From an uncultured Spartobacteria bacterium (GTDB taxonomy: Bacteria > Verrucomicrobiota > Verrucomicrobiia > Chthoniobacterales > UBA6821): a stretch of DNA of 55,131 nucleotides. This document shows, in pieces, positions 4,385 to 29,088 of the stretch; positions within the stretch are counted from its first letter, which is position 1; the number at the start of each line of letters is the position of its first letter. The notes below the pieces were generated by a model. It did not search any database. It saw only the letters and a program-made list of their open reading frames with translations, and was not told where the DNA came from. The DNA lies in the NCBI GenBank assembly GCA_903868795.1, contig CAIPWR010000031.1, forward strand, positions 1 through 55,131, in the 5' to 3' direction. A program made the position numbers and the translations under genes.

Positions 4385-5020
4385 TTATCTACCGATCGCG
4401 AGCTTCGCCATCAGGTCGGTCGTCATCGATTCTAACTCAATGGAGACTACTTCGACGCGTCGGGTGAAGTAGTTGTAGGCAACCAGATTCGGAACGGCGA
4501 CTCCAAGACCAACGATCGTGCAGTTCAAAGCCTCGGAGATGCCGTTGGCAACCAACTGGGGATCCCCGCTTGCGCCGATGTTTCCAAAGATACCGACAAG
4601 TCCTGACAGGGTTCCGAGCAACCCGAGGAGTGGGGAGATTCCGGTCGTGATCTCCAGGAAGACAAGTCCTGATTCGAGTCGGGAGATTTCATGACGAGCT
4701 CGTGTTTGCACTGCATCGAGGATCTCGGCACGGGTCCAGTCCCTGTGCTGTAGGACGCTCAACAGCACTCGTGACAGTGGGGAGGGCTCCCTGAGAAGAA
4801 ACTTCTGAAGATTCTCGGTTTGGGCTCCTCCTTTGAATCCATCCAAGGCCTTTATGACATCGGGCGGTAGCGCTCGGTCCATCTTGATGATGAGAGCTCT
4901 TTGGAGAATCACGGCCAGCGAGAAAATCGAAAGGAGGAGAAGAACAGCCATGAAGAAGCCGCCTTTGACGAAGAACTGCACAAAGCCGGGCATCGCGGCA
5001 AGGAAGGGGTATAAATTCAT
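4385..5020 (-). CDS. exbB: ExbB/TolQ/MotA-type proton channel protein
   Basis: This 211-residue inner membrane protein of the MotA/TolQ/ExbB family uses proton flow to energise TonB or Tol. It has three membrane segments: one near residues 20-43 (MAVLLLLSIFSLAVILQ), and a conserved pair in the C-terminal half starting at ITTGISPLLGLLGTLSGLVG and ISEALNCTIVGLGVAVPN. These match the MotA_ExbB domain. The ATG at 5020 is chosen because the upstream extension runs into tonB and is not conserved-looking. It lies 10 bases after the tonB stop and is the last gene of the miaB-rex-ogg-tonB-exbB run. The usual partner ExbD is not adjacent; an ExbD homologue lies at 33.4-33.8 kb. Confidence 0.9.
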   Translation of the reverse strand: MNLYPFLAAMPGFVQFFVKGGFFMAVLLLLSIFSLAVILQRALIIKMDRALPPDVIKALDGFKGGAQTENLQKFLLREPSPLSRVLLSVLQHRDWTRAEILDAVQTRARHEISRLESGLVFLEITTGISPLLGLLGTLSGLVGIFGNIGASGDPQLVANGISEALNCTIVGLGVAVPNLVAYNYFTRRVEVVSIELESMTTDLMAKLAIGR

Positions 5021-5030
5021 GCGGTGAAAC

Positions 5031-6146
5031 TTAGTAAACGGTGAAGCTGTAGTCGATTTCCAAGACCCCATTTTGGAGTGTTCTGGCAACGTCGGGAGGA
5101 ATCGGTGGCAACTTGGCGTCCATGATCGAGCGAAGACTGCAATCCGTCAAAGACTCATTCCCATTGCTGGAAATGACATGGAGCCCGCTGACCTTGCCGC
5201 TCGAACTCACTTTGAAGCTGACGTCGACAGTCCCGATGCTGAGAAGGCCCATGCGCTCATCCACATAGTAGTACCACCTGGAACCGATGGCATCCGCGAC
5301 TCCTTTGCGATAACGACCCAGCGGTGTTGCCTCGGCGGCAACGGAGGAGCGTCCGCGGTTGGAGATATTCCCACGAATTACCGTTTGGCGCGTCTCGGGT
5401 TGGTAACCCTTTGAGGATCCTTGAGATCCAGGGGCGGAGGACTGACGGAGAGGGGATGACGATATGGTTTGTGGCAATGATTTCTCGGGTGTCTGTGATG
5501 ATTGCGTTGAGGTCACCGGTGGGGGCTCGGGCGGTTCGATCAGTTTGATATTGTTGGGAAGGGGCGTGCTGCTTGGGGTTGGCTGGGGACTCGGGGTAGC
5601 GAGGGGAGTTGGGTAGGGAGTTTCTTTGGGCTTGGGGGAAGGAGACTCATGCGGCTTTTGCTCAGACTTGCTTTGTTGGGCGGGATTGGAGGGGGGGGAC
5701 ACGGGCTGCGGGGGGAGGGGATTCCCTGCAGAGGTAGCCGGTTTTTCGCCGGGAGCGAACTTCTGGTTCTGCAATTCCAAGGCTGGCTGGGCAATGCCTT
5801 GTTGTGAAGGAAGGGGAAGGACTCCCTCGGGAGGTTGTTCACTAGCGGCTTTGCTGTTTTGATCGGATTGGAAAAGCGAGTTTTGCGGTGCTTTTTCGGT
5901 GACTTCCTTTGCCTCGATGAAAGGTCGTTCGTTCTTGGGAGGAGGAGTCAGTTCAAGAGTCACCTCGGGAGGAGGCAGGTTTTTTAGGGCCTCTTTTGTG
6001 AGTAGATTTCTGGCAAAAAGAACCGCCAGAAAAATAATCAGTGTGGCATGGATCAGGCACGAAAGAATCAGGAAGAAGGGAAACCCCTTTTTCCTGCCTG
6101 CTCGCCTTTGCTGCGTGGAGGCGCGTTGTTCCGTGCCTGTCGTCAT
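5031..6146 (-). CDS. tonB: TonB-like energy transducer
   Basis: This 371-residue protein has the layout of TonB: a basic cytoplasmic N-terminus (RRAGRKKG), one membrane anchor at about 22-45 (FFLILSCLIHATLIIFLAVL), a long proline-, serine- and lysine-rich periplasmic stretch (about 55-260), and a compact C-terminal domain of about 90 residues with SIGTVDVSFKVSSSGKVSG. TonB links inner-membrane proton force to outer-membrane receptors; a TolA-like role is the main alternative. The PPPKNERPF stretch near the anchor is typical. Its start overlaps the ogg stop by 4 bases and exbB follows 10 bases downstream, supporting the energy-transduction role. No TonB-dependent receptor is in the window. Confidence 0.85.
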   Translation of the reverse strand: MTTGTEQRASTQQRRAGRKKGFPFFLILSCLIHATLIIFLAVLFARNLLTKEALKNLPPPEVTLELTPPPKNERPFIEAKEVTEKAPQNSLFQSDQNSKAASEQPPEGVLPLPSQQGIAQPALELQNQKFAPGEKPATSAGNPLPPQPVSPPSNPAQQSKSEQKPHESPSPKPKETPYPTPLATPSPQPTPSSTPLPNNIKLIEPPEPPPVTSTQSSQTPEKSLPQTISSSPLRQSSAPGSQGSSKGYQPETRQTVIRGNISNRGRSSVAAEATPLGRYRKGVADAIGSRWYYYVDERMGLLSIGTVDVSFKVSSSGKVSGLHVISSNGNESLTDCSLRSIMDAKLPPIPPDVARTLQNGVLEIDYSFTVY

Positions 6147-11950: not shown

Positions 11951-11968
11951 CTAGAGGCCCTAGAGGCC
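11951..11968 (-). repeat. Tandem 9-base duplication at the rho stop codon
   Basis: CTAGAGGCC occurs twice in tandem at 11951-11959 and 11960-11968. On the coding strand this reads Gly-Leu-stop twice in the same frame, so the last two codons and stop of rho are duplicated directly after the stop. Confidence 0.7.
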
Positions 11969-13312
11969 CTTGATCCCTCCGAGGATCAGTTCGGCGTTGC
12001 TCTTGGTAGTTTCCATGTTCAGGCAGAGAATCTGCATTGCTTCGGCAGCCGGTATTTCCATGAGCTGTTTCCGCAGCTTCAGGATGCGCTCGTATTCGTC
12101 CGGATGATAAAGAAGCTCCTCCCGACGGGTGCCTGACTTGGTGATGTGGATCGCTGGGAAGACGCGCTGTTCCATGATGGAGCGATCCAAGTAGATCTCC
12201 ATATTACCCGTCCCCTTATATTCCTCGAAGATGAGGTCATCCATTCTGCTGTGGGTTTCCACCAGTGCAGTTGCCAGAATGGTGAGGCTCCCCCCCTCCT
12301 CAACATTACGTGCAGAGCCAAAGAACTTCTTGGGTCGGGCCAGGGCTGCAGAATCGACGCCGCCGCTCATGGTGCGGCCTTTGCCCTTGATGTTGTTGTT
12401 ATAGCCGCGAGAAAGGCGCGTGATGCTGTCCACGAGGATCACCACATCTTTCTTAAGTTCCACAAGTCGTTTGGAACGCTCCGAGACCATTTCGGAAACC
12501 TGCACATGGCGGGCTGTAGGTTCATCGAAGGTTGAGCTGAAGATATCGCAATCCAGGGCGCGTCTCAGATCCGTGACTTCTTCCGGTCGCTCATCCACCA
12601 GCAAGAGCATCAGGTGAACGTCGGGGTGATTAGCCCGGATGGCAAGTGCCAGACTCTTGAGCATCATGGTTTTTCCGACACGGGGGGGGGCCACGATCAA
12701 TCCACGCTGACCCATGCCCAGGGGGGCGATGAGATCAACGGCTCGGGCCGTCGGATTGTTTTTTCCAGGCTGTTCCAGATAAATCCGCCTGTTGGGGAAC
12801 ATGGCCGTGAGCTTGTCGAACTCTGTCGGGCTCTTCCATTCCTCGGATGAGATGCCTTCGATAGCGGTGATCGTCTGAATTGCCAATTTTCGTTCGGATT
12901 GCAGTGTGACTGTTCCTTTGATTTTGAGTCCTGGACGCAACCCGTATTGGCGAAGAAGCGGAATGGGGAGTGTGAGATCGCTGGGAGTGGGTTGAAAATT
13001 AAATTGAGCCCAGCGAATCATGGGTGCATCCGGAGCAAACTCCAGGATCCCCTCCGCAGTGAGGATACCCCCTCTCTTCACCTGGTCGCGGGCCAGATCG
13101 AGTGTCAGATGATGCCTGGAAGAGTCACGGTGAAGGGGAAGATTTCTTGATGCAATCAATTCCAGGAGTTTCTTATGACTTAAGCCGTGAAGAATCTCCA
13201 GATCCAATGGAGGTGGAATCTCTGCAGGCAAATTTTGAGAGGAGTTCTCGGGAGCACCTTCGATCAGGGGGATTTCCGAGTCGGCTTCATGAGTGATGGT
13301 GCCGGATTTCAT
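11960..13312 (-). CDS. rho: Transcription termination factor Rho
   Basis: This 450-residue hexameric RNA-dependent ATPase ends transcription of untranslated RNA. The N-terminal Rho_N helical domain is about residues 38-80 and the cold-shock RNA-binding domain about 82-155. The ATPase core begins near 165 with [13 protein letters not shown]; the P loop is APPRVGKT (208-215). [30 protein letters not shown] (Q loop/R loop region) and [16 protein letters not shown] are all present. It ends typically with AMQIL and a short tail. The RNA-binding domain is unusual: the DGFGFLR-type motif is replaced by [10 protein letters not shown] (94-103). It overlaps coaE by 4 bases and lies downstream of it, an arrangement I would not call standard outside this group. 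Confidence 0.95.
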
Positions 13313-13908
13313 AGGTTTTTCAAAATGGGTAGCACTTGACGGATTTGGAGTTCCAGCATCGATGGTGCGGCATCATTCCATAGAAGGTGATCAGCAAGTG
13401 TGATTTTTTGGTCCTGAGGAGTCTGGTTTTTCAACCAAGCTGAAGTTTCTTGATGAGAGAGATTTCGGTTTATTTTTAGTCGTTCCTTTCTGACTGAATC
13501 CGAACAGGAAACAAGTATAGTCCTGTCGAAGAAGTGTTCCAAATCTTTCTCATAAAGAAGCGGGATTTCCGCGATAAAATAATCACTTTTTGTTCCTTTA
13601 GCTTTGTGAGCAAGTGGTTTCCAGACGTTCTCTAACCGAGGATGAAGAATCCCCTCAAGCAACGTTTTGGATGATTGATCTATCGTTATCAGTTCGAAAA
13701 GATGTTTTCTGTTCGGTTTACCCGACTCATTAAAACAGGAATCGCCAAATGCCGATCTGATCAATTCACGAACTTCTGTGTCCGTATCGAGTAATTTTCG
13801 GTTTTCCAGATCGGCGTTGTAGATCGTCGACGGTAGAAGCTCACCTAGTAAAGACAATGCCGAGGACTTGCCGCTTCCGATCGTTCCCGTGATCGCTATT
13901 GCCGGCAT
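13309..13908 (-). CDS. coaE: Dephospho-CoA kinase
   Basis: This 199-residue enzyme phosphorylates the 3'-hydroxyl of dephospho-CoA, the last step of coenzyme A synthesis. The P loop is GTIGSGKS (7-14), followed by the substrate-binding NADLENRKLL (where the family has a DAD element) and IAEIPLLYEKDL, matching the conserved PLLFE motif. RLKINRNLSHQE corresponds to the RxxxR lid. The length is typical (about 200). It starts 58 bases after the secretin cluster ends and overlaps rho by 4 bases. Sequence drift is noticeable but key residues are there. Confidence 0.9.
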   Translation of the reverse strand: MPAIAITGTIGSGKSSALSLLGELLPSTIYNADLENRKLLDTDTEVRELIRSAFGDSCFNESGKPNRKHLFELITIDQSSKTLLEGILHPRLENVWKPLAHKAKGTKSDYFIAEIPLLYEKDLEHFFDRTILVSCSDSVRKERLKINRNLSHQETSAWLKNQTPQDQKITLADHLLWNDAAPSMLELQIRQVLPILKNL

Positions 13909-13966: not shown

Positions 13967-16558
13967 TTACTTACCCCTCACGGCAGAGGAGGTCATGGAT
14001 GGCTGTGGGAGATCCTGAGGCAGACCCAGCGGAGTTACGATTTCAGGCTCTTCACTATCTCCGCGTCGCGGTTGACCCTCGGCATCCAGAATCCTTGGGG
14101 TAACAAAGATAATAAGATTCTTTTTCACTTTCTGATCGGCGTCCGAGCGGAAGAGGCGTCCGGCCATCGGGATATCTCCGAGAATAGGCACCTTGTCTTG
14201 TACTTTTTGCACATCCTCACGGATCAGTCCTCCAAGGGCGACGGTCTGACCATCCCAGACAGTTACGAAGGTGTTCACTTCACGAACGCTGAAGACAGGT
14301 TGATTGATTGTGTTTGTTGTGAGGGTCTCAAGGAAAGGCATCAGCAGAACACCCCCAGTACCTGTTGTCCGAACATATCCGACAGAATTCAGTGGTGATC
14401 CGTAGTTGATAAAGCCATCAAAGTCCGTGACTCTTGGATTAAGTTCCAGATCGATGGTATAGCCATCGGGTCCAATGGTTGGCTTGGCCTCCAACACCAC
14501 ACCGAGATCCTGTTTGGTAAAATCTCTAGGGAAGGAAGGAGTAACCGTCGGGGGAGTTCCCGTATTGGAAGAACTCTGGGGAATCTGAGGTGGATCATAT
14601 TGACGTGGATAGATGAACTCATCGACGATCTTGACCGTGGCTTTAACGCCGCTCTTCGTTGTCACCTTGGGCGCGGCCATGAGATCAACACCTTTTTTCT
14701 GATTCAGGGCGTGAATGACCATCTGGAATTGAGGATCCGTAAACACTCCAGCAACACTAAAAACTCCGGGTGCAGGAGTTGTGGAACCACCGGACTGGCC
14801 GGCAAGAAGAGCACCAATCGAGTTTCCACTGATGGCTTGGTCTCCGGTTCTAAGACTGCCGACGGTATTCATTCCGGAAGAATTAAAGGGATAATTTGCA
14901 CTATTTAGGGAGTTCGATCCTCCTCCTCCGCTTCCATAAACACCACCCCCGATGCTGAATGGTCCAAGCAACCAGTCAAATCCCAGTTCCTGAACGTTAT
15001 TCTGGTTGATTTCCAGGAATTTGGTCTGGATATCGACTTGCGAGGGAGCCACCCCCATGGCTGCATCGACCAGAGCATCAATCTGATCGATATTATCACG
15101 GGTATTCCGAATCACGAGTTTACTGCCAGAAGGAAGGTAGTTAGCACTCGCTCCAGCAGGGAACTCGACACCCTGGGAAACCAGATAATCCTGGGCATTA
15201 TAGCGGGCGGCAACACGGGGAGCATTGGCCGTACTAGCTGCGGCTCCTGCCTGAGGCAACGCATTGGCAGAGTCAAGTGGTTTTGGGGGGATGAAGGTTG
15301 GTGGCACCTGATATTCCTTCGTGATCAGGATATCTGTTGGCTCGGAGAGAGGAACGATGGAGACTGCGTAAGGATCAATCTTGAGCTTTAGATTGCAGAG
15401 CTTGCTGATGTAGTCGAGGGCTACATAGAGAGGTACATGGGAGAGCGCTAGTGTGATATGAGGCTCTGCTGATCCGGCGTTAGCCTGAGGTGGCGCACCT
15501 GCTGATCCGGGTAATGCTGCATTGGTGGAGGCGGCTAGCTGTGGTCCCGTAGCAGATGATTGTGACCCGAGTTTCAGGAAGATATTGACTCCTTTGTGGT
15601 TGGGATCCTGCTCGACGCTTTTCTGCTTAAGGTATTCGACGGCCTCACTGATGGGAGAATCACTCAGGTCAATCTTTGGGATGATGATGGAGTTAAGCTT
15701 TGCTGTGATTTGATCAGTTCCCCGTATATCTTGTTGGCGCCCAACGGATTCTGTGCTTCGACCCTGTTTGGACTTGCGAGGGGGACGCTCCCAGGCTTTC
15801 TCAACCTGCCAGAGCATTCTGCTCCGCGTTTCGTTATAAGCCTCGTCGGCGTACTTGATCGTGGAGTTATTGATTTCCTCCATTCCCTTGCGGGCAGCAG
15901 TGTTGTATGGGTCGATTTGAAGAACAGCATCGTACTGCTTCAGGGCCAGTTCATTTCGGCCCGTCTTTGCAAGGTCGGAAGCCTGCCTAAGGAGTTTAAC
16001 CACTTCATCGCGCTTTGCAGCAAAGGTGGGGGTGACCGTTTTGTTGAAGACACCGGGTTGTTCCAAATCCGAGAGAAACTTCACCGCGGCGGTACAACTT
16101 GGATTCATGGTGGGATCCAAAATGGATTTGGCAACGCTCTCCGCAGAGAGAGGATTGCCGTCGGCATCACTAACGCCTGATTTTTTCGCGATGCTATCGG
16201 TGAAAACTCCGTTGTTCGCGAGTTCACGGGCAAAGGCGAGAGCGATGGTGGTGTAGTTTGAAAGCAGGATGCTTCTGTTGGAATTCGCGGAAGCCCCCGA
16301 AGGAGCCTTGCTCATGGCTTGCACCGCCTGGGCATAAGCCCCCTTCAGATCATGCTGGGCGTACTTCTGCATGGCGGCGCTCATCAAGGATTGAGCCTGA
16401 ACCAGATCTTCCTGGCTCCGGACAATGGCTCTCTCTGCATCCGCAGCAACGGATGCAGATTGTCCCAATGCTTGATAGGAACCTCCTAGACTTATCATTG
16501 CAAGGGTTGCAATGACTAGGGATGACTGAAGGTGAAAAAGAGATTTACGACTCTGCAT
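13967..16558 (-). CDS. Amuc_1098-family pilus secretin, copy A
   Basis: About 863 residues with a signal peptide (LVIATLAMISLGGSYQALGQ) and an N-terminal alpha-helical/TPR-like region (about 30-250, including NELALKQYDAVLQIDPYN). A ring-building domain begins near IIIPKIDLSDSPISEAVEYL and a C-terminal secretin domain follows. The secretin signature is GGLIREDVQKVQDKVPILG, about 780-798. The GDIPMAGRLF and IFVTPRILD end is typical of PilQ/GspD. It should form a multimeric channel in the outer membrane for a type IV pilus-like machine. The ATG at 16558 is preceded by AGGTG; a GTG at 16573 is an alternative. It lies only 5-20 bases after the paralogous copy B, so the two are co-transcribed. The last ~40 residues are acidic and proline rich. 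Confidence 0.88.
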   Translation of the reverse strand: MQSRKSLFHLQSSLVIATLAMISLGGSYQALGQSASVAADAERAIVRSQEDLVQAQSLMSAAMQKYAQHDLKGAYAQAVQAMSKAPSGASANSNRSILLSNYTTIALAFARELANNGVFTDSIAKKSGVSDADGNPLSAESVAKSILDPTMNPSCTAAVKFLSDLEQPGVFNKTVTPTFAAKRDEVVKLLRQASDLAKTGRNELALKQYDAVLQIDPYNTAARKGMEEINNSTIKYADEAYNETRSRMLWQVEKAWERPPRKSKQGRSTESVGRQQDIRGTDQITAKLNSIIIPKIDLSDSPISEAVEYLKQKSVEQDPNHKGVNIFLKLGSQSSATGPQLAASTNAALPGSAGAPPQANAGSAEPHITLALSHVPLYVALDYISKLCNLKLKIDPYAVSIVPLSEPTDILITKEYQVPPTFIPPKPLDSANALPQAGAAASTANAPRVAARYNAQDYLVSQGVEFPAGASANYLPSGSKLVIRNTRDNIDQIDALVDAAMGVAPSQVDIQTKFLEINQNNVQELGFDWLLGPFSIGGGVYGSGGGGSNSLNSANYPFNSSGMNTVGSLRTGDQAISGNSIGALLAGQSGGSTTPAPGVFSVAGVFTDPQFQMVIHALNQKKGVDLMAAPKVTTKSGVKATVKIVDEFIYPRQYDPPQIPQSSSNTGTPPTVTPSFPRDFTKQDLGVVLEAKPTIGPDGYTIDLELNPRVTDFDGFINYGSPLNSVGYVRTTGTGGVLLMPFLETLTTNTINQPVFSVREVNTFVTVWDGQTVALGGLIREDVQKVQDKVPILGDIPMAGRLFRSDADQKVKKNLIIFVTPRILDAEGQPRRGDSEEPEIVTPLGLPQDLPQPSMTSSAVRGK

Positions 16559-16578
16559 GACGATGGTTGGCACCTTGT

Positions 16579-19131
16579 TTATCGGGTGGGTTTTGAGGCT
16601 GTCGAAGGATCTCCCGGTACAGCCTCCGAGGCAACAGCCTTGGCACTTGGAGCGGGAACTTCCTCGCCACTCTCCACGGTCTTGATCAAGGGCTGTCCAG
16701 CCGGATCAAGCAGGCCAGCCGTGACGAAAATAAGAAGATTTCTCTTGATGCGCTGATTTGCGGAACTACGGAAGAGAGAGCCCACAAGTGGCAGGTCTCC
16801 GGCAATCGGGGTCTTGTCCTGAACTTTTTGGACATCCTCCCTCATGAGGCCTCCCAAGACAACGGTCTGTCCATCGTAGACAGTCACTTGAGTGTCGACT
16901 TGTCGCACACTAAAGACAGGTTGATTGATCGTGTTTGGGGTCAATGTAATTTGGCGGGTTGCAATCACGGGACCATTGCTTCCCCCAAGATAAACCGGGG
17001 CTAGGGTTTGAATGGGGCTTCCATAGTTCACAAATCCTTGGAATTCCGTGATTTGAGGGGAGAGGCTAAGCTCGATGGTGTAACCATCAGGCCCGACTGT
17101 CGGTTCCACCTCAAGTTGTACACCGCAATTACGCGTCTCAAAAGATGTCGGTGTCGCTGGAGTTGCGGGCGCAACGCCTCCTCCTTGTGTCTGGGGAACG
17201 GTGGGGGGAGAGTAGTTTTGAGGGTAGGGGAATTTCTGAGTGATATTGATCGTAGCTTTACGCCCGCTGGTGACTGTGACTTTCGGGGCAGAGACAAGAT
17301 CCACCCCTTTCTGTTGGTTGATGGCGCGAAGCACAACCTGAAACTGCGGATTCGTAAAGACTCCGGCAAGTGCAAGGACTCCTGCTGCAGGACCAACCGG
17401 TGATCCGAAGAGGAGTCCGTCCAAAGCATTCGCCGTAATCGCTGAAGATCCCGTTCGGTTTCCAGAGGTAATATTTCCCGCAGTGACATTTCCCGCGGCA
17501 TCCACGTTCATGGCTCCCGCAGGGACACCAGCAGGGCTGACAAAGGGATAATTACCGGCGTTTGCATTAGGCTGATTACCAGAGGTTCCACCACCTGTGT
17601 TGACTCCACTGCCGCCTGGAAGTTGGAAGGCTCCCATCAGCCAGTCAAAGCCAAGTTCCTGTAGATTATTCTGGGTTACTTCGAGGAATCGCGCCTCGAT
17701 CTCCACCTGACTTGGAGGAGTGGCTAGCGATACCTCCACCAGGGAGTCGATGAGGTCGAGGTTTGCCTGGGTGTTCTTGACAAGCAATTTGCTGCTAGAT
17801 GCTAGGTATGTAGCACTCGCCCCCAAGGGAAAGGTAACTCCTTGGGACTCAAGAAACTCCTTGGCGCCGGACTTTCCCACGGTTCCTGAAGCTCCAGGAA
17901 CCCCTGCTGTTGGAAGTGCTCCGGCAGTGGGAGTGGAGGCAGCCGTACTGGAGATAAACCCTGGGGGAACTTTGTATTCTTTCGCAATAAGGGTTTCTGT
18001 AGGTTCAGAGAGGGGAACAATGGCTGCGGCGTAAGGTTCGATCTTGACCTTGAGGTTAGCCGCCGAGGCGATGTATTTCAGAGCCTCTCCCAAAGGAAGG
18101 TCATTAAGAGAGAGATTAAGCTTTGTTCCACCGTCAACGGCCTCCTTCGCAGGATCAAGCTTGAGAACAATGTTTACACCTTTCTTTGCTGGATCCGTTT
18201 CGTTTGTGTCGAGGGTGCGTGATTTTTTCTGAAGTTTTTCGATCGCCTCCCGTACGGTTTCATCGGAAAGGGATAGTTGTGGTATTCTGATCTCCTGAAG
18301 TTTCCTACTGATAGCGCTGGTGCCCTGCATATCGACAGGGCTCTGCTCGACAATCGTGGTTGCTCCCGTATTGATTTTTGGCACCGGTAGTTCCCACGCC
18401 CTGGCAACATCGGAAATCATCTGGCTTCTACGCTCGGTGTAGGCAGTCTCCGCGTAACTCGATCTTTGTTTATTGATTTTCTCCATTCCGAGACGCGCGG
18501 ATTTGTTTTCAGAATCGAGATTGAGAACCATTTGATATTTTGCGAACGCGGCATCAAAACGACCTGATGCATACATTCCCTCTGCTTCGTTCATCAATTG
18601 CTCTACCTGTGTCACCTTGGCTACAAATCCAGGTGTAATGGTTCGATTGAAATGGTTCGGATCGCGAAGGGACCTCTGAAGATCCAGCAATGAGGCGTAG
18701 GCAGAGTTATAAGGTTTGTCCGTAGCCGTTTTGACAACCAACTCAGCATCATCATAGTAGCCTTCGCTCACCCGTTGCGTGGCCAATGCAAATGCTGCCT
18801 TGGAAAAGGTCTCAAGGGCCATGGAGCGTAAACCTGCAGATGATTCTCCTCCGGAGGGCATTGCATCCAAAGCGCTCTTGGAAAAAGCAAAAGCTGATTC
18901 GTAATCCTTATCCGCCAAAGCGGAGGAGGCCTTTGCCGTTTGAGCTTGGGCCCAACTACTCCTCTCTTGAAGAACACGGATTTGACGCTCGGATTGCCCG
19001 ATAACACCACTCTGCTGGGCATAGGTAATCGCGGAAGAAAGAGTCATCCCTCCTACAACGAATCTGACAGCCAGTACTGCAAGAGAGGACACGTTCGGGC
19101 GCCTAAAGGAAATATTCTGAGAATGAGTCAT
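16579..19131 (-). CDS. Amuc_1098-family pilus secretin, copy B
   Basis: An 850-residue paralogue of copy A with the same plan: a membrane-targeting N-terminus (VRFVVGGMTLSSAITYAQQ), a helical/TPR-like region with GRFDAAFAKYQMVLNLDSEN, and an N-domain beginning at IRIPQLSLSDETVREAIEKL. The secretin core ends with GGLMREDVQKVQDKTPIAG (about 760-778), GDLPLVGSLF and LIFVTAGLLD. The glycine/asparagine-rich insert between the two halves (NAGNYPFVSPAG) differs in sequence from that of copy A (NSANYPFNSSG) but occupies the same place. The two proteins align across their whole length, so this is an old tandem duplication rather than two different secretins. Downstream of the Amuc_1099-like gene by 35 bases. 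Confidence 0.88.
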   Translation of the reverse strand: MTHSQNISFRRPNVSSLAVLAVRFVVGGMTLSSAITYAQQSGVIGQSERQIRVLQERSSWAQAQTAKASSALADKDYESAFAFSKSALDAMPSGGESSAGLRSMALETFSKAAFALATQRVSEGYYDDAELVVKTATDKPYNSAYASLLDLQRSLRDPNHFNRTITPGFVAKVTQVEQLMNEAEGMYASGRFDAAFAKYQMVLNLDSENKSARLGMEKINKQRSSYAETAYTERRSQMISDVARAWELPVPKINTGATTIVEQSPVDMQGTSAISRKLQEIRIPQLSLSDETVREAIEKLQKKSRTLDTNETDPAKKGVNIVLKLDPAKEAVDGGTKLNLSLNDLPLGEALKYIASAANLKVKIEPYAAAIVPLSEPTETLIAKEYKVPPGFISSTAASTPTAGALPTAGVPGASGTVGKSGAKEFLESQGVTFPLGASATYLASSSKLLVKNTQANLDLIDSLVEVSLATPPSQVEIEARFLEVTQNNLQELGFDWLMGAFQLPGGSGVNTGGGTSGNQPNANAGNYPFVSPAGVPAGAMNVDAAGNVTAGNITSGNRTGSSAITANALDGLLFGSPVGPAAGVLALAGVFTNPQFQVVLRAINQQKGVDLVSAPKVTVTSGRKATINITQKFPYPQNYSPPTVPQTQGGGVAPATPATPTSFETRNCGVQLEVEPTVGPDGYTIELSLSPQITEFQGFVNYGSPIQTLAPVYLGGSNGPVIATRQITLTPNTINQPVFSVRQVDTQVTVYDGQTVVLGGLMREDVQKVQDKTPIAGDLPLVGSLFRSSANQRIKRNLLIFVTAGLLDPAGQPLIKTVESGEEVPAPSAKAVASEAVPGDPSTASKPTR

Positions 19132-19166: not shown

Positions 19167-20255
19167 TTAAAGCGATGGGCTCGCGCTCGGTGAGGGAGAG
19201 GAGGATGACTTAATGGTGAAGTTTTTACCATCCTTGTTGAGCAGAATTCCATCTTTTGAAAAATCAACGAGCTTGTAAGTTTCCTTATGTTTTTTGTCCA
19301 AACTTTCCAGATTGAATGTCTTGCCCCGTTCCACGGTGACATCCTCAGGAGATGCTCCTGTGAGTTGGTAGTGGAAGGTCACGCTTTCAACAAGTTCAAT
19401 GGGTGACTTCTTGTATTCTCTGGAGGTGTTCTTTTTTGTCAGGGCGTGGTGCTCTCCAGTGAGTGTGTTTTCCAGCACCATTACCCCGAAGTCGTACTCG
19501 GTATCATTGATTGTCTTGGTCTTGTCGGTGTAGTCCACCATTTTCAGGAAAGGAGCACCCGGTACCGTTGCCCCTTTCTGAACGATCCGAACCGAATTGT
19601 CGGGACGATTTCCCTTTGCCGGATTGGGGAGTGGTTGAACGGGACGCAATTGATAGTCAATGCTGACTTTGTTTGTATCGGTGGCACCATTGGCATCTGT
19701 CACTGCATTCGTTTCAATACCCACAAACTCCAGGAGATAAGTGCTCTTGCGAATGTCACTCTCAGCGAAATTCAGTTTGGTGTAGAGTAGGGGGAACTGA
19801 TCGGCATTGTTAGGATCAGTTCCGGCTAGAAACTCCTCACGCACAGTGAACCCCTTGTGTTTGGGATCACGGTCGAGGATGTTAACATCCGTGTAGTCGA
19901 GTTGGTGATCGATGAGCCATTGGTTGGGAACGGGAGGATAAAGAGGTTCGTTGCCTACCATCGGGTCAATGAGCTTACCCTCCTTGAGTAGGTAGGGCCG
20001 GGAGACCAGCGGAGAGGAACCATTATCGCTGGTCTTCCAAAGAACAGGCTGCGTGAGATGAGTTGATGCAATTACGGCATTGGAGGAGGCGGTAGGGGCC
20101 GGACTTCTTTCCTTTTTGGAGATGGAATCTGCTCCTTTGAGCGAGTCTTGAAAACCAAGGGACTGGGTGATGAGGAAAGCTGCGCTGGACAGGGCGATCA
20201 CCGAGGCAATCCCCAAGAGAACCAAATGGTAGTAGCGAAGTAGCAGATTCTTCAT
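19167..20255 (-). CDS. Amuc_1099-family pilus-like system protein
   Basis: This 362-residue protein has one membrane segment near the N-terminus (LVLLGIASVIALSSAAFLI, about 13-31) and a periplasmic remainder with a charged, beta-rich character (GFTVREEFLAGTDPNNADQ, then SPEDVTVERGKTFNLESL near the C-terminus). I identify it as the Amuc_1099 family mainly from its size, topology and position between the PilO-like protein and the secretin. It may play the part of PilP, linking the inner-membrane complex to the secretin. That role is inferred. It ends in a serine/proline tail. It starts 9 bases after the stop of the Amuc_1100-like gene. Confidence 0.75.
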   Translation of the reverse strand: MKNLLLRYYHLVLLGIASVIALSSAAFLITQSLGFQDSLKGADSISKKERSPAPTASSNAVIASTHLTQPVLWKTSDNGSSPLVSRPYLLKEGKLIDPMVGNEPLYPPVPNQWLIDHQLDYTDVNILDRDPKHKGFTVREEFLAGTDPNNADQFPLLYTKLNFAESDIRKSTYLLEFVGIETNAVTDANGATDTNKVSIDYQLRPVQPLPNPAKGNRPDNSVRIVQKGATVPGAPFLKMVDYTDKTKTINDTEYDFGVMVLENTLTGEHHALTKKNTSREYKKSPIELVESVTFHYQLTGASPEDVTVERGKTFNLESLDKKHKETYKLVDFSKDGILLNKDGKNFTIKSSSSPSPSASPSL

Positions 20256-20264
20256 GGGGTGCTG

Positions 20265-21221
20265 TTACTTGTCAGAGGGTTTAGTTTGCAAGTTGGAATC
20301 AGCTGAAGCGCCCTGATCCGGGAACTCGAACGCTCGGAGTTTTAGTGAGATGTCGAGAAGTTCCCGGCCCACAATAATCGGAAGTCTCTGGACTGGAGTA
20401 CTGCCATCCGGCGTGGGAGGAGCAACAGGAGGGGGAGTGTCACGTCTGGGAGGTTCCCCTGAAGTGTTTTGGATAAGCAATTGATCGATAATCAGGAAAT
20501 AGGAGGCGGTCGAAATTGCGTTGATGATTTCTCGGAATGACCCTTGGTTGCTGCGAAAGCTGATCTTGATGCCGCATGAAGACTCATAGGGTAAGGATGC
20601 TTTGGTCGTAGCGGGGAGAGATGTTTTTTTCGCAAGATCCTTTTTTGACACCGTCTCCACAACGGGTCTTGAGAATTCTGAAATGATCAAATCCTTGTGA
20701 TTTGCCAGCAATTCGGCCAACCAACTCAGGATAGTGAGTTGTTTGGCAAGGAGTTGGACGTCATCCTGTGAAGGAAGCCTGTTTTCATATTCATCAAGTC
20801 CGAGATAAAATCCAAGTGGAAGCGTGGCGCCGCTTGCGGACGCAAGCGCTTTGATCCTGGTTACCTCATTGCGCAAGGCATCTTGAAAGCGTTGTGGGCG
20901 GTCCTGAGGTTTTGCGGCAGCAATATCGGCAAAGGAAGGAATCCTGTACTTCTGCAGATCTTTAATGAGGGACGCCAATTGCGATTGTTCGGTGGAAATC
21001 GTCGAGTCCAGCTTGGCAAGATTGTCCTGACTGGGAAACGGTTTGTCCTGAGAGAATTTTAGTAACTGCGCGGCCTTGGAGGTGTAATCCGCGCTTGCTG
21101 TTCCGTAGCCATCCCATGCCTGATAAGCCAGAAATCCAAGAATCAGGGTTCCAAGGATCAGAGTGGCCAACAGGGAAGCAGCCAGCTTGTTGTTCACAAA
21201 CCAAGTGGTGATCTTGTTCAT
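20265..21221 (-). CDS. Amuc_1100-family PilO-like pilus protein
   Basis: 318 residues, very close to the 317 of Amuc_1100. It has a short cytoplasmic N-terminus (MNKITTWFVNNK), one membrane segment at about 13-33 (LAASLLATLILGTLILGFLA), a coiled-coil region rich in Lys/Gln (LDSTISTEQSQLASLIKDL), and a C-terminal ferredoxin-like region including ISTASYFLIIDQLLIQN, as in PilO. In T4P systems PilO pairs with PilN in the inner-membrane alignment complex. The Akkermansia protein is the well-known Amuc_1100. The start is taken at 21221, 4 bases after the PilM-PilN stop. A longer frame overlapping that gene is rejected because it would bury the membrane segment behind 55 unrelated residues. Confidence 0.8.
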   Translation of the reverse strand: MNKITTWFVNNKLAASLLATLILGTLILGFLAYQAWDGYGTASADYTSKAAQLLKFSQDKPFPSQDNLAKLDSTISTEQSQLASLIKDLQKYRIPSFADIAAAKPQDRPQRFQDALRNEVTRIKALASASGATLPLGFYLGLDEYENRLPSQDDVQLLAKQLTILSWLAELLANHKDLIISEFSRPVVETVSKKDLAKKTSLPATTKASLPYESSCGIKISFRSNQGSFREIINAISTASYFLIIDQLLIQNTSGEPPRRDTPPPVAPPTPDGSTPVQRLPIIVGRELLDISLKLRAFEFPDQGASADSNLQTKPSDK

Positions 21222-21225
21222 CAGT

Positions 21226-22929
21226 TCAGGGAAGGGGGGTGAAGGGATTGCGAAGAGGGATCCTGAGAGAAAACGGGTAAGCCCAGTACTCACCATTCGG
21301 ACTGCCGCGCTGCGTGATAATCTTAGATTTTTCCTTTTCCTCGACCACAAAGACCTCGGAGGACTGCAAGGCTGTGACGAAGTCATCGATCACTGAGGCC
21401 TGGCGAGGGTTGTCAAGATAGAGGCCCTTAACGAGGAGAGCCTTGATGGATCCATCATTTGGTTTGGCCGCAGCGCCCCGCTGGGGAACATCGCCCACCG
21501 CTTGGATTTGTGTAATCCAGAGGTATCGTTCAGGCACCTTTGCACTGAGTTCGGCCAGAATCTTGGGGTAGGCTTCCCTGAGATTAATCACGGAAAGAAG
21601 TGCATCGCTGGTCTGCTGGATGGAGAGCTCCTTGGCCGCCAACGCCTTGATCTGACTTGAGATCTTGCTGTCCTTTGCGATCTCAGAGTCGATGGAGGCA
21701 GTCGTGGTCCTGGTCAGGGAAGTTGCCTGCAAGGCAAAAACATACCAAGCCCCGAGGCTCGCGAGGAAAAAGAAGACTGCGACTGCAAGGAAAGGGAAGC
21801 GTTTGGCAAAAGCCCTTTTCTTCGAAACTGATGGGGGAAGTAGGTTGATCTTGGTTCGCGGTGCAGAAGTTAACAGCAGGGCTCCGCCAACCAATTCACC
21901 TAGATTATTTGGATTTGACTCAACGAAAGAGCGCGCGGATTCAGTAACCGTAACACCTTCCAGAGGGTTGAAAAATGATGTCTCCTTCTGGAGCTTTTCG
22001 GTAAAGAATTCAGCAAGATAAGGGAGGGATGCCATTCCTCCCGTGAGGAGAATTAATGAAGGATCGTTTCCTCCGAGATTTGACCTGTAGTAGCTCAGGG
22101 AGCGGCTGATATCGGCTTGAGTCTTAAGTAGTGACTGCCTTGCAATCCGAGCGATGTTCGCTTCGACGGGGTCGCTTGGTTGTTCGAATCCAGCCCCGAG
22201 TGCTACACTTCCACGGGAAATCTTCAGATTTTCAGCTTCATCCAACTCTGCATGGATATCTTTAGCAATTGCTGCCGTAACAGCCAATCCACCCGAAGGA
22301 ATACTTCGGGAGAAGAAGGCGCCTTCAGCCGCGATGACCATGTTGGAGGTACGGGAACCAATGTCTAGAAGGAGGGTTGTAGATGATGAATCACCCGTCG
22401 ATGAGGCGCTGCGAAACGCATCATAGAGTGAGAGGGGGGCGACCAGTACCGAAGTGATGTTGAGGCCTGTGGAGGAGACCGCGTCGCAGAGTGATTCCAG
22501 CAAGTCAGCTTTGACTGCCAGAAAAACAACGTTCACTGCGCCGGAAGGGGTGTTTCCCATCACCACGTAATCCCAGACGACTTCTTCCAGAGGGAAGGGA
22601 ATGTTCTGTTGGGCTTCGAAACCGACAACGGCAGCCACTTGCTCCGAGGAACCTCCCGGCACTTCCAGGGGTACAACCCTGGTAAAGACCGTGTGAGCGG
22701 GCAGCACGCAAATGACCTCGGAACGCGAGATCTTCCAGTTCTTAAGAATATCACTGAGGGCCAGGCGAATCTGCTCGGGACGGGAGGTGTCGAGTGAAGG
22801 GTCGATCATCAACTCCCTGCGAGCACCCCGATGCATGGTGAGTTGACCATCTGAAGAAACAGAAAACTCGGCGATGCGAAGAGACTGCATCCCAAGATCG
22901 AGAACCAAGGTTTTTTTGGGCGATGCCAT
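21226..22929 (-). CDS. PilM-PilN fusion (Amuc_1101 family)
   Basis: This 567-residue protein combines two parts of the T4P inner-membrane complex. Residues 1-350 form an actin-like PilM/FtsA fold: VLDLGMQSLRIAEF (9-22), a second phosphate element LLLDIGSRTSNMVI (186-199), and LLTGGMASLPYLAEF (294-308). At 361 the PilN hallmark INLLPPS appears, followed by one membrane segment (about 379-400) and a periplasmic coiled coil and domain, as in PilN. In most bacteria PilM and PilN are separate proteins that bind through this same motif. Here they are one chain, so the cytoplasmic actin-like part is tethered to the membrane. It is followed by the PilO-like gene 4 bases later. Confidence 0.85.
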   Translation of the reverse strand: MASPKKTLVLDLGMQSLRIAEFSVSSDGQLTMHRGARRELMIDPSLDTSRPEQIRLALSDILKNWKISRSEVICVLPAHTVFTRVVPLEVPGGSSEQVAAVVGFEAQQNIPFPLEEVVWDYVVMGNTPSGAVNVVFLAVKADLLESLCDAVSSTGLNITSVLVAPLSLYDAFRSASSTGDSSSTTLLLDIGSRTSNMVIAAEGAFFSRSIPSGGLAVTAAIAKDIHAELDEAENLKISRGSVALGAGFEQPSDPVEANIARIARQSLLKTQADISRSLSYYRSNLGGNDPSLILLTGGMASLPYLAEFFTEKLQKETSFFNPLEGVTVTESARSFVESNPNNLGELVGGALLLTSAPRTKINLLPPSVSKKRAFAKRFPFLAVAVFFFLASLGAWYVFALQATSLTRTTTASIDSEIAKDSKISSQIKALAAKELSIQQTSDALLSVINLREAYPKILAELSAKVPERYLWITQIQAVGDVPQRGAAAKPNDGSIKALLVKGLYLDNPRQASVIDDFVTALQSSEVFVVEEKEKSKIITQRGSPNGEYWAYPFSLRIPLRNPFTPLP

Positions 22930-22966: not shown

Positions 22967-23605
22967 TTACTGCTTCTTCACAGCCTCGTAATAATCCGAG
23001 TTGAGGGAAGCAAAGGGGGTATCATTCTTGTTCAAGAGGAAGCCGCTGGTTTTTTGGTATTGTGGCCACCAGACCCCGGGAGATTTGAGGCTTTTCTGGG
23101 CGACGACCTGTCCCTGTCTGGAAATGGTGACACCAATGTCGACAATGGCGGAAGAAGCGCTGGAAGGAATCTTGCCGTCGAAGAAGCGCTCCAGTGTTCT
23201 GGGACTGATATACATCACGGACTTAAGGTCGTTTTGCATTGCAGGAACAGAGCTATGGGTGACCTGGCCTGTCAGCAGTGTTCCCTGGGGAGCCGCCGTG
23301 TTTTTGTTGGCTAGCAGGACGTAATAATCGAGAACAATATCGTCTGCGTATTTGTCTGCTGGGCTGAGTGCCGTCGAGGACTGCCATCCGAAGGTCACCT
23401 CAATTTCCATCCAGCTTTTGGGGCGGGAAGACTTCGCAGTTGCTCCAGAGTAAGAGATCGTGGGCGTTGTGACAATGGCGGGCTCGATCTTGGAAATCGT
23501 AAAGCCCGTTGTGTTCTGGGCATGCAAGGTGAAGCTGCCAAAAAGGAGTACAGCGCAGGGGGCAACAAGTCTTCTCAAAAACTGGGGGATGATGGGGGTA
23601 TGCAT
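22967..23605 (-). CDS. Amuc_1102-family exported pilus-like protein
   Basis: 212 residues with a signal peptide (RRLVAPCAVLLFGSFTLHAQ) and a single beta-rich domain (WMEIEVTFGWQSS, DIVLDYYVLLANK, VYISPRTLERFF-type elements). The size, export signal and position at the head of the cluster match Amuc_1102, which has an immunoglobulin-like fold. The precise role in the pilus-like machine is not known. The ATG at 23605 has AGGGGA about 9 bases upstream, the best Shine-Dalgarno in this cluster. This gene is the most upstream member of a six-gene minus-strand run reaching the second secretin. Confidence 0.8.
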   Translation of the reverse strand: MHTPIIPQFLRRLVAPCAVLLFGSFTLHAQNTTGFTISKIEPAIVTTPTISYSGATAKSSRPKSWMEIEVTFGWQSSTALSPADKYADDIVLDYYVLLANKNTAAPQGTLLTGQVTHSSVPAMQNDLKSVMYISPRTLERFFDGKIPSSASSAIVDIGVTISRQGQVVAQKSLKSPGVWWPQYQKTSGFLLNKNDTPFASLNSDYYEAVKKQ

Positions 23606-26849: not shown

Positions 26850-26904
26850 TTTTATTCCCACAGGCTGGACGGGTGTGGGTATTCGTCCTATAGGTAGTTC
26901 TTGC

Positions 26905-27993
26905 ATGGATACCCCTCCGGAATCGATCGAGCTCTATTGCAGGGCTGCTGATGAATACAAGGCTTCCGATTTGATTCTGCACGTCGGAGAACCCCCGATC
27001 GTCAGGGTGTCGGGCAGTGTGACCCCAATGGAGGCCCCTCCGCTTAGTCTGCCGGATATGATGGCTTTCCGTGCATATTGTGATGTTCCCAAGGAGGCTA
27101 CGGATCATGATGCGAGCTTTGTTTCTGCCGGAGGAATTCGCTTCCGTGTAAACTTCCACCGTCAGCTTGGGGCAGAGGCGGCTGTTCTCCGCAGGATCAC
27201 GGGAACACCACCGGACATCGACGCGCTTGGAGTACCCTCTGGAATCCTCAAGAAGATGGCTGGTCGCAGATCGGGCATCATCATCGTGTCGGGACCGACC
27301 GGCTCCGGAAAGTCGACCACTCTTGCCGCCCTGCTCGAATGGGTGAACAAGAACATGGAGCGCCATATCATCACCATCGAGGATCCCATCGAATTTGTTT
27401 TTCACAGGGATCGATCTCTTTTTACCCAACGAGCTGTGGGACTCGATACTCCTAGCTTTGCTGAGGGATTGCGACGCTCCCTGCGTCAGGCACCCGACAT
27501 CATTCTGGTCGGTGAAATTCGTGATGCATTGACCGCTTCTGTGGCACTGCAGGCGGCAGAGACGGGGCATTTGGTCCTCACGACTCTCCATGCTTCGGAT
27601 GTCGGGGAGGTGCTGGAGCGCCTCATGGCATTTTTTCCGGCTGGTGAAAGGGAGGGACATCTGCACGTTCTTTCCGGCCAGTTGCTATGCGTCCTCTGTC
27701 AAAAGTTACTCCCTGGGTGCGATGGAGGAATGGTTCTCGCCTGTGAGTATATGACCAATGAGGGCTTTGCCACCGAGGCGATTCGCGAGGGTGATATCTC
27801 CACGCTGCGCGATCTTCTTTCAACTGCCGATGAGAAGGAATCTAGGGATTTCTTACGTAGTCTCCACCTTCTCGTCAGTGCAGGTATCCTCTCGGAAGAA
27901 GTTGCCCTCTCGGCCGCAACACATCCCGCAGAGCTTCGACGCAAACTGCGCGGTATCGAGACAGGAAACTTTGCCACGCGTCAGAATCTCTGA
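26905..27993 (+). CDS. PilT-type ATPase, copy 1
   Basis: About 362 residues; a hexameric motor ATPase of the PilT/PilU family that would power pilus retraction. Walker A is GPTGSGKS (130-137), the Asp box IEDPIEF follows, Walker B is DIILVGEIRD, and the His box is TGHLVLTTLHASD. AIREGD corresponds to the C-terminal AIRNLIRE motif of PilT. The ATG at 26905 is preferred over a GTG at 26875; the family's N-terminal domain begins soon after it. It is followed by copy 2 after 3 bases. PilB-type zinc cysteines are absent. The copies are diverged, suggesting PilT/PilU-like specialisation. Confidence 0.87.
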   Translation: MDTPPESIELYCRAADEYKASDLILHVGEPPIVRVSGSVTPMEAPPLSLPDMMAFRAYCDVPKEATDHDASFVSAGGIRFRVNFHRQLGAEAAVLRRITGTPPDIDALGVPSGILKKMAGRRSGIIIVSGPTGSGKSTTLAALLEWVNKNMERHIITIEDPIEFVFHRDRSLFTQRAVGLDTPSFAEGLRRSLRQAPDIILVGEIRDALTASVALQAAETGHLVLTTLHASDVGEVLERLMAFFPAGEREGHLHVLSGQLLCVLCQKLLPGCDGGMVLACEYMTNEGFATEAIREGDISTLRDLLSTADEKESRDFLRSLHLLVSAGILSEEVALSAATHPAELRRKLRGIETGNFATRQNL

Positions 27994-27996
27994 TTC

Positions 27997-29088
27997 ATGG
28001 AATACAACCCCAACACGCCCGATTTGGTTGACCTCCTCCGTGAGTCTGCCTCGACTCATTGTTCGGATCTCCATTTGGCAACCGGTCGCCCGCCATGCTT
28101 TAGAAAAAACGGTAACATTACGGAGGGAAATTATCTTCCCCTCGAATCTCGTGTATGTCGTGAAATGGTGCTCGGGATGCTGAATGAGAATCAGCGCGCT
28201 GAGCTGGAAAAGAAAAGGGAACTGAATTTCGGCGTCCAGATCCGTGGGGTGGGAAGATTTCGTGGCAATGCTCACTACAGCAGGGGATCCTTGGAGGCGA
28301 CTTTCAGATTCATTCCGGTAACGATTCCCGCGCTTTCGGAAATCGGACTCAGACCGACGGTTTTCTCTCTCTGTGATCTTACGCGCGGACTCATCTTGGT
28401 CACGGGAAGCACTGGTTCTGGAAAGACAACCTCGATTGCCTCCATGGTGAAGCATATCAGTGAACAGAGGTCCGGAGTGATCATCACTGTGGAGGATCCG
28501 GTTGAATTTTATTTTGAGAATGCCAGATCAATCATAAAACAGCGCGAGGTTGGCATCGATACACTATCATTCGCAGACGCTCTGGAGAATATTCTTAGGC
28601 AGGACCCTGATGTCGTGGTCGTGGGTGAGTTGAGGGATCAGGAAACGGTACGGGCTACTCTCAAGGCTGCTGAAACGGGCCACCTCGTCATTTCCACACT
28701 CCATACCATCGATGCCCCGCAATCACTTGATCGCATCCTAGATTTCTTCCCTGGTAACGAGCAAAAACAGATCCTCTCGACACTTGCTGATTCGCTTGCC
28801 GGAATCATCGCACAGCGCCTTATCCCTCAGGAAAACAGTGATCGTCGGGTGCTGGTAAGCGAAATGTTGACCTCAACTCCTGCCGTTAAGCGCGCGATTC
28901 GAGAGCATCATTTCGAGCAGTTGGTTGGAATGATGGAGGCTGGTCGCAAGGATGGTATGTACACACTCGATGAGGTGCTGGAGGATCTTTATTTAAATGG
29001 GATGATCAGCAAAGAGGAGGCTATTGCAGGGGCCAGGGATCCTTCCAGGATGGAGGCGTTACGGCGTAAACCTTCTCAAAAAGCGTGA
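27997..29088 (+). CDS. PilT-type ATPase, copy 2
   Basis: 363 residues with a PAS-like N-terminal domain (SDLHLATGRPPCFRKNG) and a RecA-like core: Walker A GSTGSGKT (137-144), Asp box VEDPVEF, Walker B PDVVVVGELRD, His box TGHLVISTLHTID. RAIREHH matches the IRE motif of PilT. It differs clearly from copy 1 (for example at the N-terminus), so the pair is not a recent duplication. It has a closing MISKEEAIAGARDPSRM segment like PilT. It probably works with copy 1 and the secretin cluster across the shared chromosomal neighbourhood, although no PilB/PilC is present. Confidence 0.9.
   Translation: MEYNPNTPDLVDLLRESASTHCSDLHLATGRPPCFRKNGNITEGNYLPLESRVCREMVLGMLNENQRAELEKKRELNFGVQIRGVGRFRGNAHYSRGSLEATFRFIPVTIPALSEIGLRPTVFSLCDLTRGLILVTGSTGSGKTTSIASMVKHISEQRSGVIITVEDPVEFYFENARSIIKQREVGIDTLSFADALENILRQDPDVVVVGELRDQETVRATLKAAETGHLVISTLHTIDAPQSLDRILDFFPGNEQKQILSTLADSLAGIIAQRLIPQENSDRRVLVSEMLTSTPAVKRAIREHHFEQLVGMMEAGRKDGMYTLDEVLEDLYLNGMISKEEAIAGARDPSRMEALRRKPSQKA

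Follow-up and report, generated by a model that had tools for sequence, protein, structure and literature searches.

A co-retained tandem pair of Amuc_1098-type secretins in a type IV pilus-like operon of Chthoniobacterales

The tandem secretin genes and their operon

The window, by which we mean the whole analyzed stretch of 55,131 nucleotides, contains two adjacent secretin genes on its minus strand, called here U (upstream copy) and D (downstream copy). They belong to an operon with the order 1102, 1101 (PilM-like), 1100, 1099, U, D, coaE, rho, where four-digit numbers denote Amuc_ protein families. The features of the operon are as follows.

22967..23605, minus strand: Amuc_1102-family pilus-like protein, the first gene of the conserved block (NF042424, 100.7 bits, cut-off 55)
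21226..22929, minus strand: Amuc_1101-family PilM-like protein (NF045709, 1.7e-142, below cut-off; Pfam PilM_2, 8.7e-27)
20265..21386, minus strand: Amuc_1100-family pilus-like protein, single copy (NF038287, 9.5e-39, 133.7 bits, below the cut-off of 180; synteny)
19167..20255, minus strand: Amuc_1099-family pilus-like system protein, single, directly upstream of U (NF042425, 140.2 bits, cut-off 50)
16579..19131, minus strand: secretin U, 850 amino acids (open frame, Pfam, NCBIfam, AlphaFold2, Foldseek)
16559..16578, minus strand: junction of U and D, with the TAA of U, 20 nucleotides, and then the ATG of D; a GTG lies in between
13967..16573, minus strand: secretin D, 868 amino acids from the GTG or 863 from the ATG at 16558 (profiles, AlphaFold2, Foldseek)
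13309..13908, minus strand: coaE, dephospho-CoA kinase, a conserved downstream marker of the locus (TIGR00152, 110.8 bits; synteny)
11960..13312, minus strand: rho, a conserved downstream marker of the locus (NF006886, 476.1 bits; synteny)

The two secretins are identical at 351 of 827 aligned positions (42%, BLASTP E = 0), and both have the core of the secretin superfamily, as they match Pfam PF00263 (Secretin) with E-values of 1.8e-34 (U) and 2.3e-35 (D). Both match the Amuc_1098-family profile NF042912 over their full length; U, with 785.7 bits, passes the curated cut-off of 750 bits, which D misses by 0.9 bit (749.1 bits). A pipeline applying the cut-off would therefore name only U. In trees, D clusters with U and the single-copy Amuc_1098 members. 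The initial annotation described two full-length secretins of 863 and 850 residues on a common plan, and open frames, NF042912, Pfam and structure models agree with it; its placement of both copies in the Amuc_1098 type and in a pilus-like operon is borne out by the profile matches, gene order and trees. The stop codon of U and the start codon of D overlap (ATGA) in some relatives. Frames of 1720–1770 amino acids spanning both genes were rejected as a fused double secretin, since each has a stop codon followed by an ATG and signal peptide of its own.

Secretin U is composed of a signal peptide (residues 1–38), a helical TPR-like region (43–247), an N0/N1-like region (268–390), an N3-like domain (422–474), the secretin core (475–808), and a C-terminal tail. 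Secretin D follows the same plan of signal peptide, TPR-like region, N-domain-like blocks and secretin core; the domain names of both were read by us from secondary structure. The core contains the motif GGLMREDVQKVQDK in U and GGLIREDVQKVQDK in D. The tail of U is of its own type and ends in ...EAVPGDPSTASKPTR, and that of D reads EEPEIVTPLGLPQDLPQP...GK, with a terminal lysine common to single-copy relatives. The AlphaFold2 models of U and D have mean pLDDT values of 67 and 68 and a pTM of about 0.3, at which the interdomain arrangement is unreliable. Both models contain TPR-like helices, N0/N1-like and N3-like domains, a low-confidence Gly/Asn-rich insert, and the β-structured secretin core. 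The best Foldseek matches of U are PilQ (6w6m) and BfpB (9u5s). According to Foldseek and profile searches, the closest solved relatives of both copies are PilQ, BfpB and GspD, and the N-terminal region additionally matches TPR proteins.

The order of the operon, with one or two secretins between 1099 and coaE, is kept in the window and in nearly all fetched loci. Proteins 1099, 1100 and 1102 are encoded once per operon. Amuc_1101 occurs once in the genome of the window and once in nearly all genomes with tandem secretins, so that the machine has one PilM-like platform and two secretins. The system is of the type IV pilus kind, as a PilM-like protein accompanies the secretin and the genome encodes a PilC-like platform as well as ATPases for extension and retraction. 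Of its seven T2SSE-family ATPase genes, three have the size of PilB/GspE and four are PilT-like; two PilC-like proteins are also encoded. Two of the PilT-family retraction ATPases are in tandem on the plus strand of the window (26875–27993 and 27997–29088; TIGR01420, 320 and 412 bits), and contig C33 of the same genome contains more tandem T2SSE-family pairs, so that paired paralogues recur in its pilus system. A third, distant secretin-like protein (contig C12, 13910–14134, 848-residue frame, E = 4.7e-9) is possibly a type II secretion secretin. An ExbB/TolQ-like protein adjoins a protein with a TonB C-terminal domain at 4385–6146 on the minus strand of the window.

The locus resembles that of Akkermansia muciniphila Amuc_1098 (PilQ) in its domain plan and in the order 1102, 1101, 1100, 1099, 1098, coaE, rho; however, the Akkermansia-type operon has one secretin and that of the window two. 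The secretin of the Akkermansia-type locus L067 has 907 residues, scores 1118 bits with NF042912, and is 35% identical to U and 34% to D. PilQ/Amuc_1098 also has 907 residues, and its length and cloning primer match L067, including the DGGAVGTS stretch (PMC4960237). The initial annotation gave a single secretin for the Akkermansia locus, which is correct for the operon; a second, unlinked Amuc_1098-family secretin is present outside the pilus operon in Akkermansiaceae-type genomes (loci L068, L070, L075 and L076).

Origin and retention of the two copies

The family was found by search in 161 of the 213 genomes of the order. Tandem pairs characterize families f1 (that of the window), f3, f4, f66, f67 and f68, and a single secretin is present in f2, f5 and f62–f65. 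Named relatives belong to Spartobacteria/Chthoniobacterales, and many of them originate from lakes; isolate LR76 (L120) has the tandem. Chthoniobacter flavus Ellin428 (L163) and Udaeobacter-like loci, which share the order and the operon with the window, are the closest single-copy outgroup. Unlike the window, such sister families have one secretin, which occupies the same place and has a Lys-ending tail like that of D.

Across about 50 loci from several Chthoniobacterales families, the U copies fall into one clade and the D copies into another, and the two clades mirror each other. In an IQ-TREE analysis of 65 rows, the U clade and the D clade each have support of 100/100 and are sisters at 90/98, with the single-copy relatives outside. 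A tree of 167 rows likewise has one U clade and one D clade, save for contig-edge copies, whose U or D label is unreadable from position. The initial annotation proposed a duplication within the phylum with both copies kept, and these trees uphold it; its counter-scenario of copies from different secretin families does not apply, as U and D group together, and acquisition from different families is excluded. There is no sign of gene conversion in the mirror clades, which indicate that one old tandem duplication produced the pair. The branching order among U, D and the single-copy clade is tentative: when U is constrained to group with the single-copy clade, the likelihood falls by 7 log units (AU p = 0.35), and this grouping is the one favored by a smaller tree. 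The one duplication may date to the stem lineage of the tandem families, or else precede the radiation of the order, in which case the single-copy lineage would have lost D afterwards. In a tree of the partners 1101, 1100 and 1099, the single-copy loci of the order form one clade, which fits either timing.

The order of families is nearly identical in the U and D halves of the tree (mirror-tree r = 0.93). With rho and coaE distances removed, the partial correlation between U and D is 0.77 across 18 loci, a value reached by 0 of 300 shuffles. The same 18 loci give 0.77 also for 1100 and 1101, and the residuals connect both secretins with 1100 and 1101 as well; the correlation thus speaks for co-function in one system, rather than for direct contact.

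Of the 60 tandem-family genomes that have the locus, 56 show at least two matches, in agreement with the retention of both copies; some of these multiple matches are split genes. The other four (G478, G332, G346 and G381) have partial copies only, three of which start at a contig end. No genome of the clade clearly shows loss or relocation of one copy, and neither copy lacks core elements across the clade, the outcome that the initial annotation had named as contrary to its proposal. Apparent extra copies in single-copy genomes such as G361, G365 and G392 are split or fragmented genes. The dN/dS of close pairs is 0.04–0.20 for U and 0.04–0.21 for D. Judged from these sequence comparisons, the two copies are under similar purifying selection and neither is degenerate; dN/dS and conservation exclude a pseudogene. 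A search of viral contigs returned a single short fragment only.

In the sister genus g2 (L062/G281, G472, G473, G475 and G476), both secretins are kept, but they are shorter and evolve fast. NF045709 did not detect an Amuc_1101 in this genus at 1e-20, and a profile built from relatives of the window found one in L062. Two reduced genomes of 0.9 Mb from the same order (G036 and G057) gave no Amuc_1098-family match at 1e-60, and the larger G492 and G493, which have the same genus code, keep the pair.

Tandem secretins have arisen elsewhere in the phylum. Two secretins follow 1099 in all 15 loci read from families f16 and f21, and the first copies group in one clade and the second copies in another (support of 100 each), both outside the Chthoniobacterales sequences, which indicates a separate duplication. 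A third tandem pair, composed of mutual sisters, is present in G078 (family f11). The f16 and f21 copies score about 320 bits with NF042912, far under the cut-off. Annotation based on this profile consequently undercounts tandem secretins, given that D also falls just short of it.

Divergence between the copies

Measured against the identity within each copy, U and D are most alike in the core and least alike in the tail and linkers. Their identity is 0.63 in the core (0.69 and 0.72 within the copies), 0.41 in the TPR domain (0.55 and 0.53), and 0.28 in the tail (0.48 and 0.51). The TPR domain, the 248–267 linker and the C-terminal tail are the most diverged parts. Of the Asn/Gly-rich inserts and tails, to which the initial annotation assigned the main differences, the tails stand, and the inserts diverge less than the TPR domain, the linker and the tail.

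Thirteen sites, counted without the fast-evolving rows of genus g2, f3 and f66, are conserved in the single-copy secretins but persist in only one of the two copies. Secretin U keeps nine of them, five in the TPR domain, and D keeps four. The TPR residues U116, U120 and U123, retained in U and in the single-copy secretins, were lost by D alone; R247 and W250 of D and the ancestral Lys-ending tail were lost by U alone. A P-x-G-x-P tail is present in 39 of 45 D copies and in none of 43 U copies, whereas an (I/V)PGD tail is found in 33 of the 43 U copies and in none of the D copies. Lysine is the terminal residue in 42 of 45 D copies, all 33 single-copy secretins, and 5 of 43 U copies. The tail of D resembles the single-copy tail by its terminal lysine, and that of U is new. 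This pattern of divergence is what would be expected of specialization.

Possible roles of the secretin pair

Secretins form outer-membrane rings of 12–15 subunits. To our knowledge, the rings known from type II and type III secretion systems, from type IV pili and from the export of filamentous phages each contain one kind of subunit, as do the solved rings of PilQ, BfpB and GspD (6w6m, 9u5s and 5w68). These three share the secretin core with U and D, and as far as we know lack the N-terminal TPR-like domain and copy-specific tails. In the literature library that we searched, there was no report of a tandem or mixed secretin pair.

Gene order, phylogeny and sequence comparison show that U and D are members of the same family that arose by one duplication, stay in the same operon, and have remained whole and under constraint in almost every descendant; their difference is concentrated in the periplasmic TPR domain, a linker and the C-terminal tail. 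We hypothesize, with a confidence that falls a little short of even, that they are specialized as two gate subunits of one type IV pilus-like machine, most likely in one mixed ring. The two proteins would be made together and assembled into a single outer-membrane ring, with the conserved secretin core as its common wall. With their differing TPR domains and tails, the subunits would provide two sets of docking sites for the single-copy 1099, 1100, 1101 and 1102 proteins or for the cell wall. Retention, mirror trees, the shared single-copy inner-membrane partner and the copy-specific tails fit mixed rings, one of the arrangements, possibly with different gating, that the initial annotation had suggested. 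As a counterpoint, each copy has all core elements and could form a homo-ring, and the seven T2SSE-family ATPase genes make more than one pilus or secretion mode possible. The low U–D divergence of the core is weak evidence, since no part of a secretin evolves more slowly.

Two separate homo-oligomeric rings could instead share the single 1099/1100/1101 platform and be deployed in different circumstances or for different cargo, one for instance in pilus extrusion and the other in protein secretion or DNA uptake. We consider this rather unlikely. The completeness and constraint of each copy, the presence in the genome of multiple PilB-like and PilT-like ATPases and of two PilC-like proteins, and the differing tails and TPR surfaces are in its favor; however, the 20-nucleotide gap, or overlap, between the genes makes co-expression probable, the partners are single copy, and the clade offers no clear case of a dropped or moved copy. 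Avoidance of cross-assembly would also favor divergence at the core surfaces, but the core is where U and D differ least.

It is also conceivable, though improbable, that one copy forms the channel and the other is an accessory subunit in low number, such as a cap, an assembly factor or a peptidoglycan-binding collar. The strongest changes affect the TPR domain, linker and tail, not the pore, and the reciprocal losses of TPR residues by D and of R247, W250 and the Lys-ending tail by U suit such a division; but both copies preserve a whole secretin core under similar constraint, which an accessory role would not need. A mere increase in secretin dosage, without specialization, is very improbable given the U–D identity of about 42%, the mirror clades free of traces of gene conversion, and the fixed copy-specific residues and tails, even though a high demand is plausible, as no outer-membrane protein of A. 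muciniphila is reported to be more abundant than Amuc_1098 (PMC4960237).

Returning to the mixed ring, we speculate that the pair may represent an obligate hetero-oligomeric secretin, one gate built of two paralogues with distinct TPR docking surfaces and tails, that evolved several times in Verrucomicrobiota-type pilus operons; we regard this broader proposal as possible but somewhat doubtful. The pair bears on the Amuc_1098–1102 system of Akkermansia, the mechanism of which is little known. The copy-specific tails and TPR residues are direct targets for experiments. A clade-wide pair of secretins beside a single-copy platform, reinvented within the phylum, offers a natural test of whether secretin rings can be built of two subunits and of what benefit this would bring.
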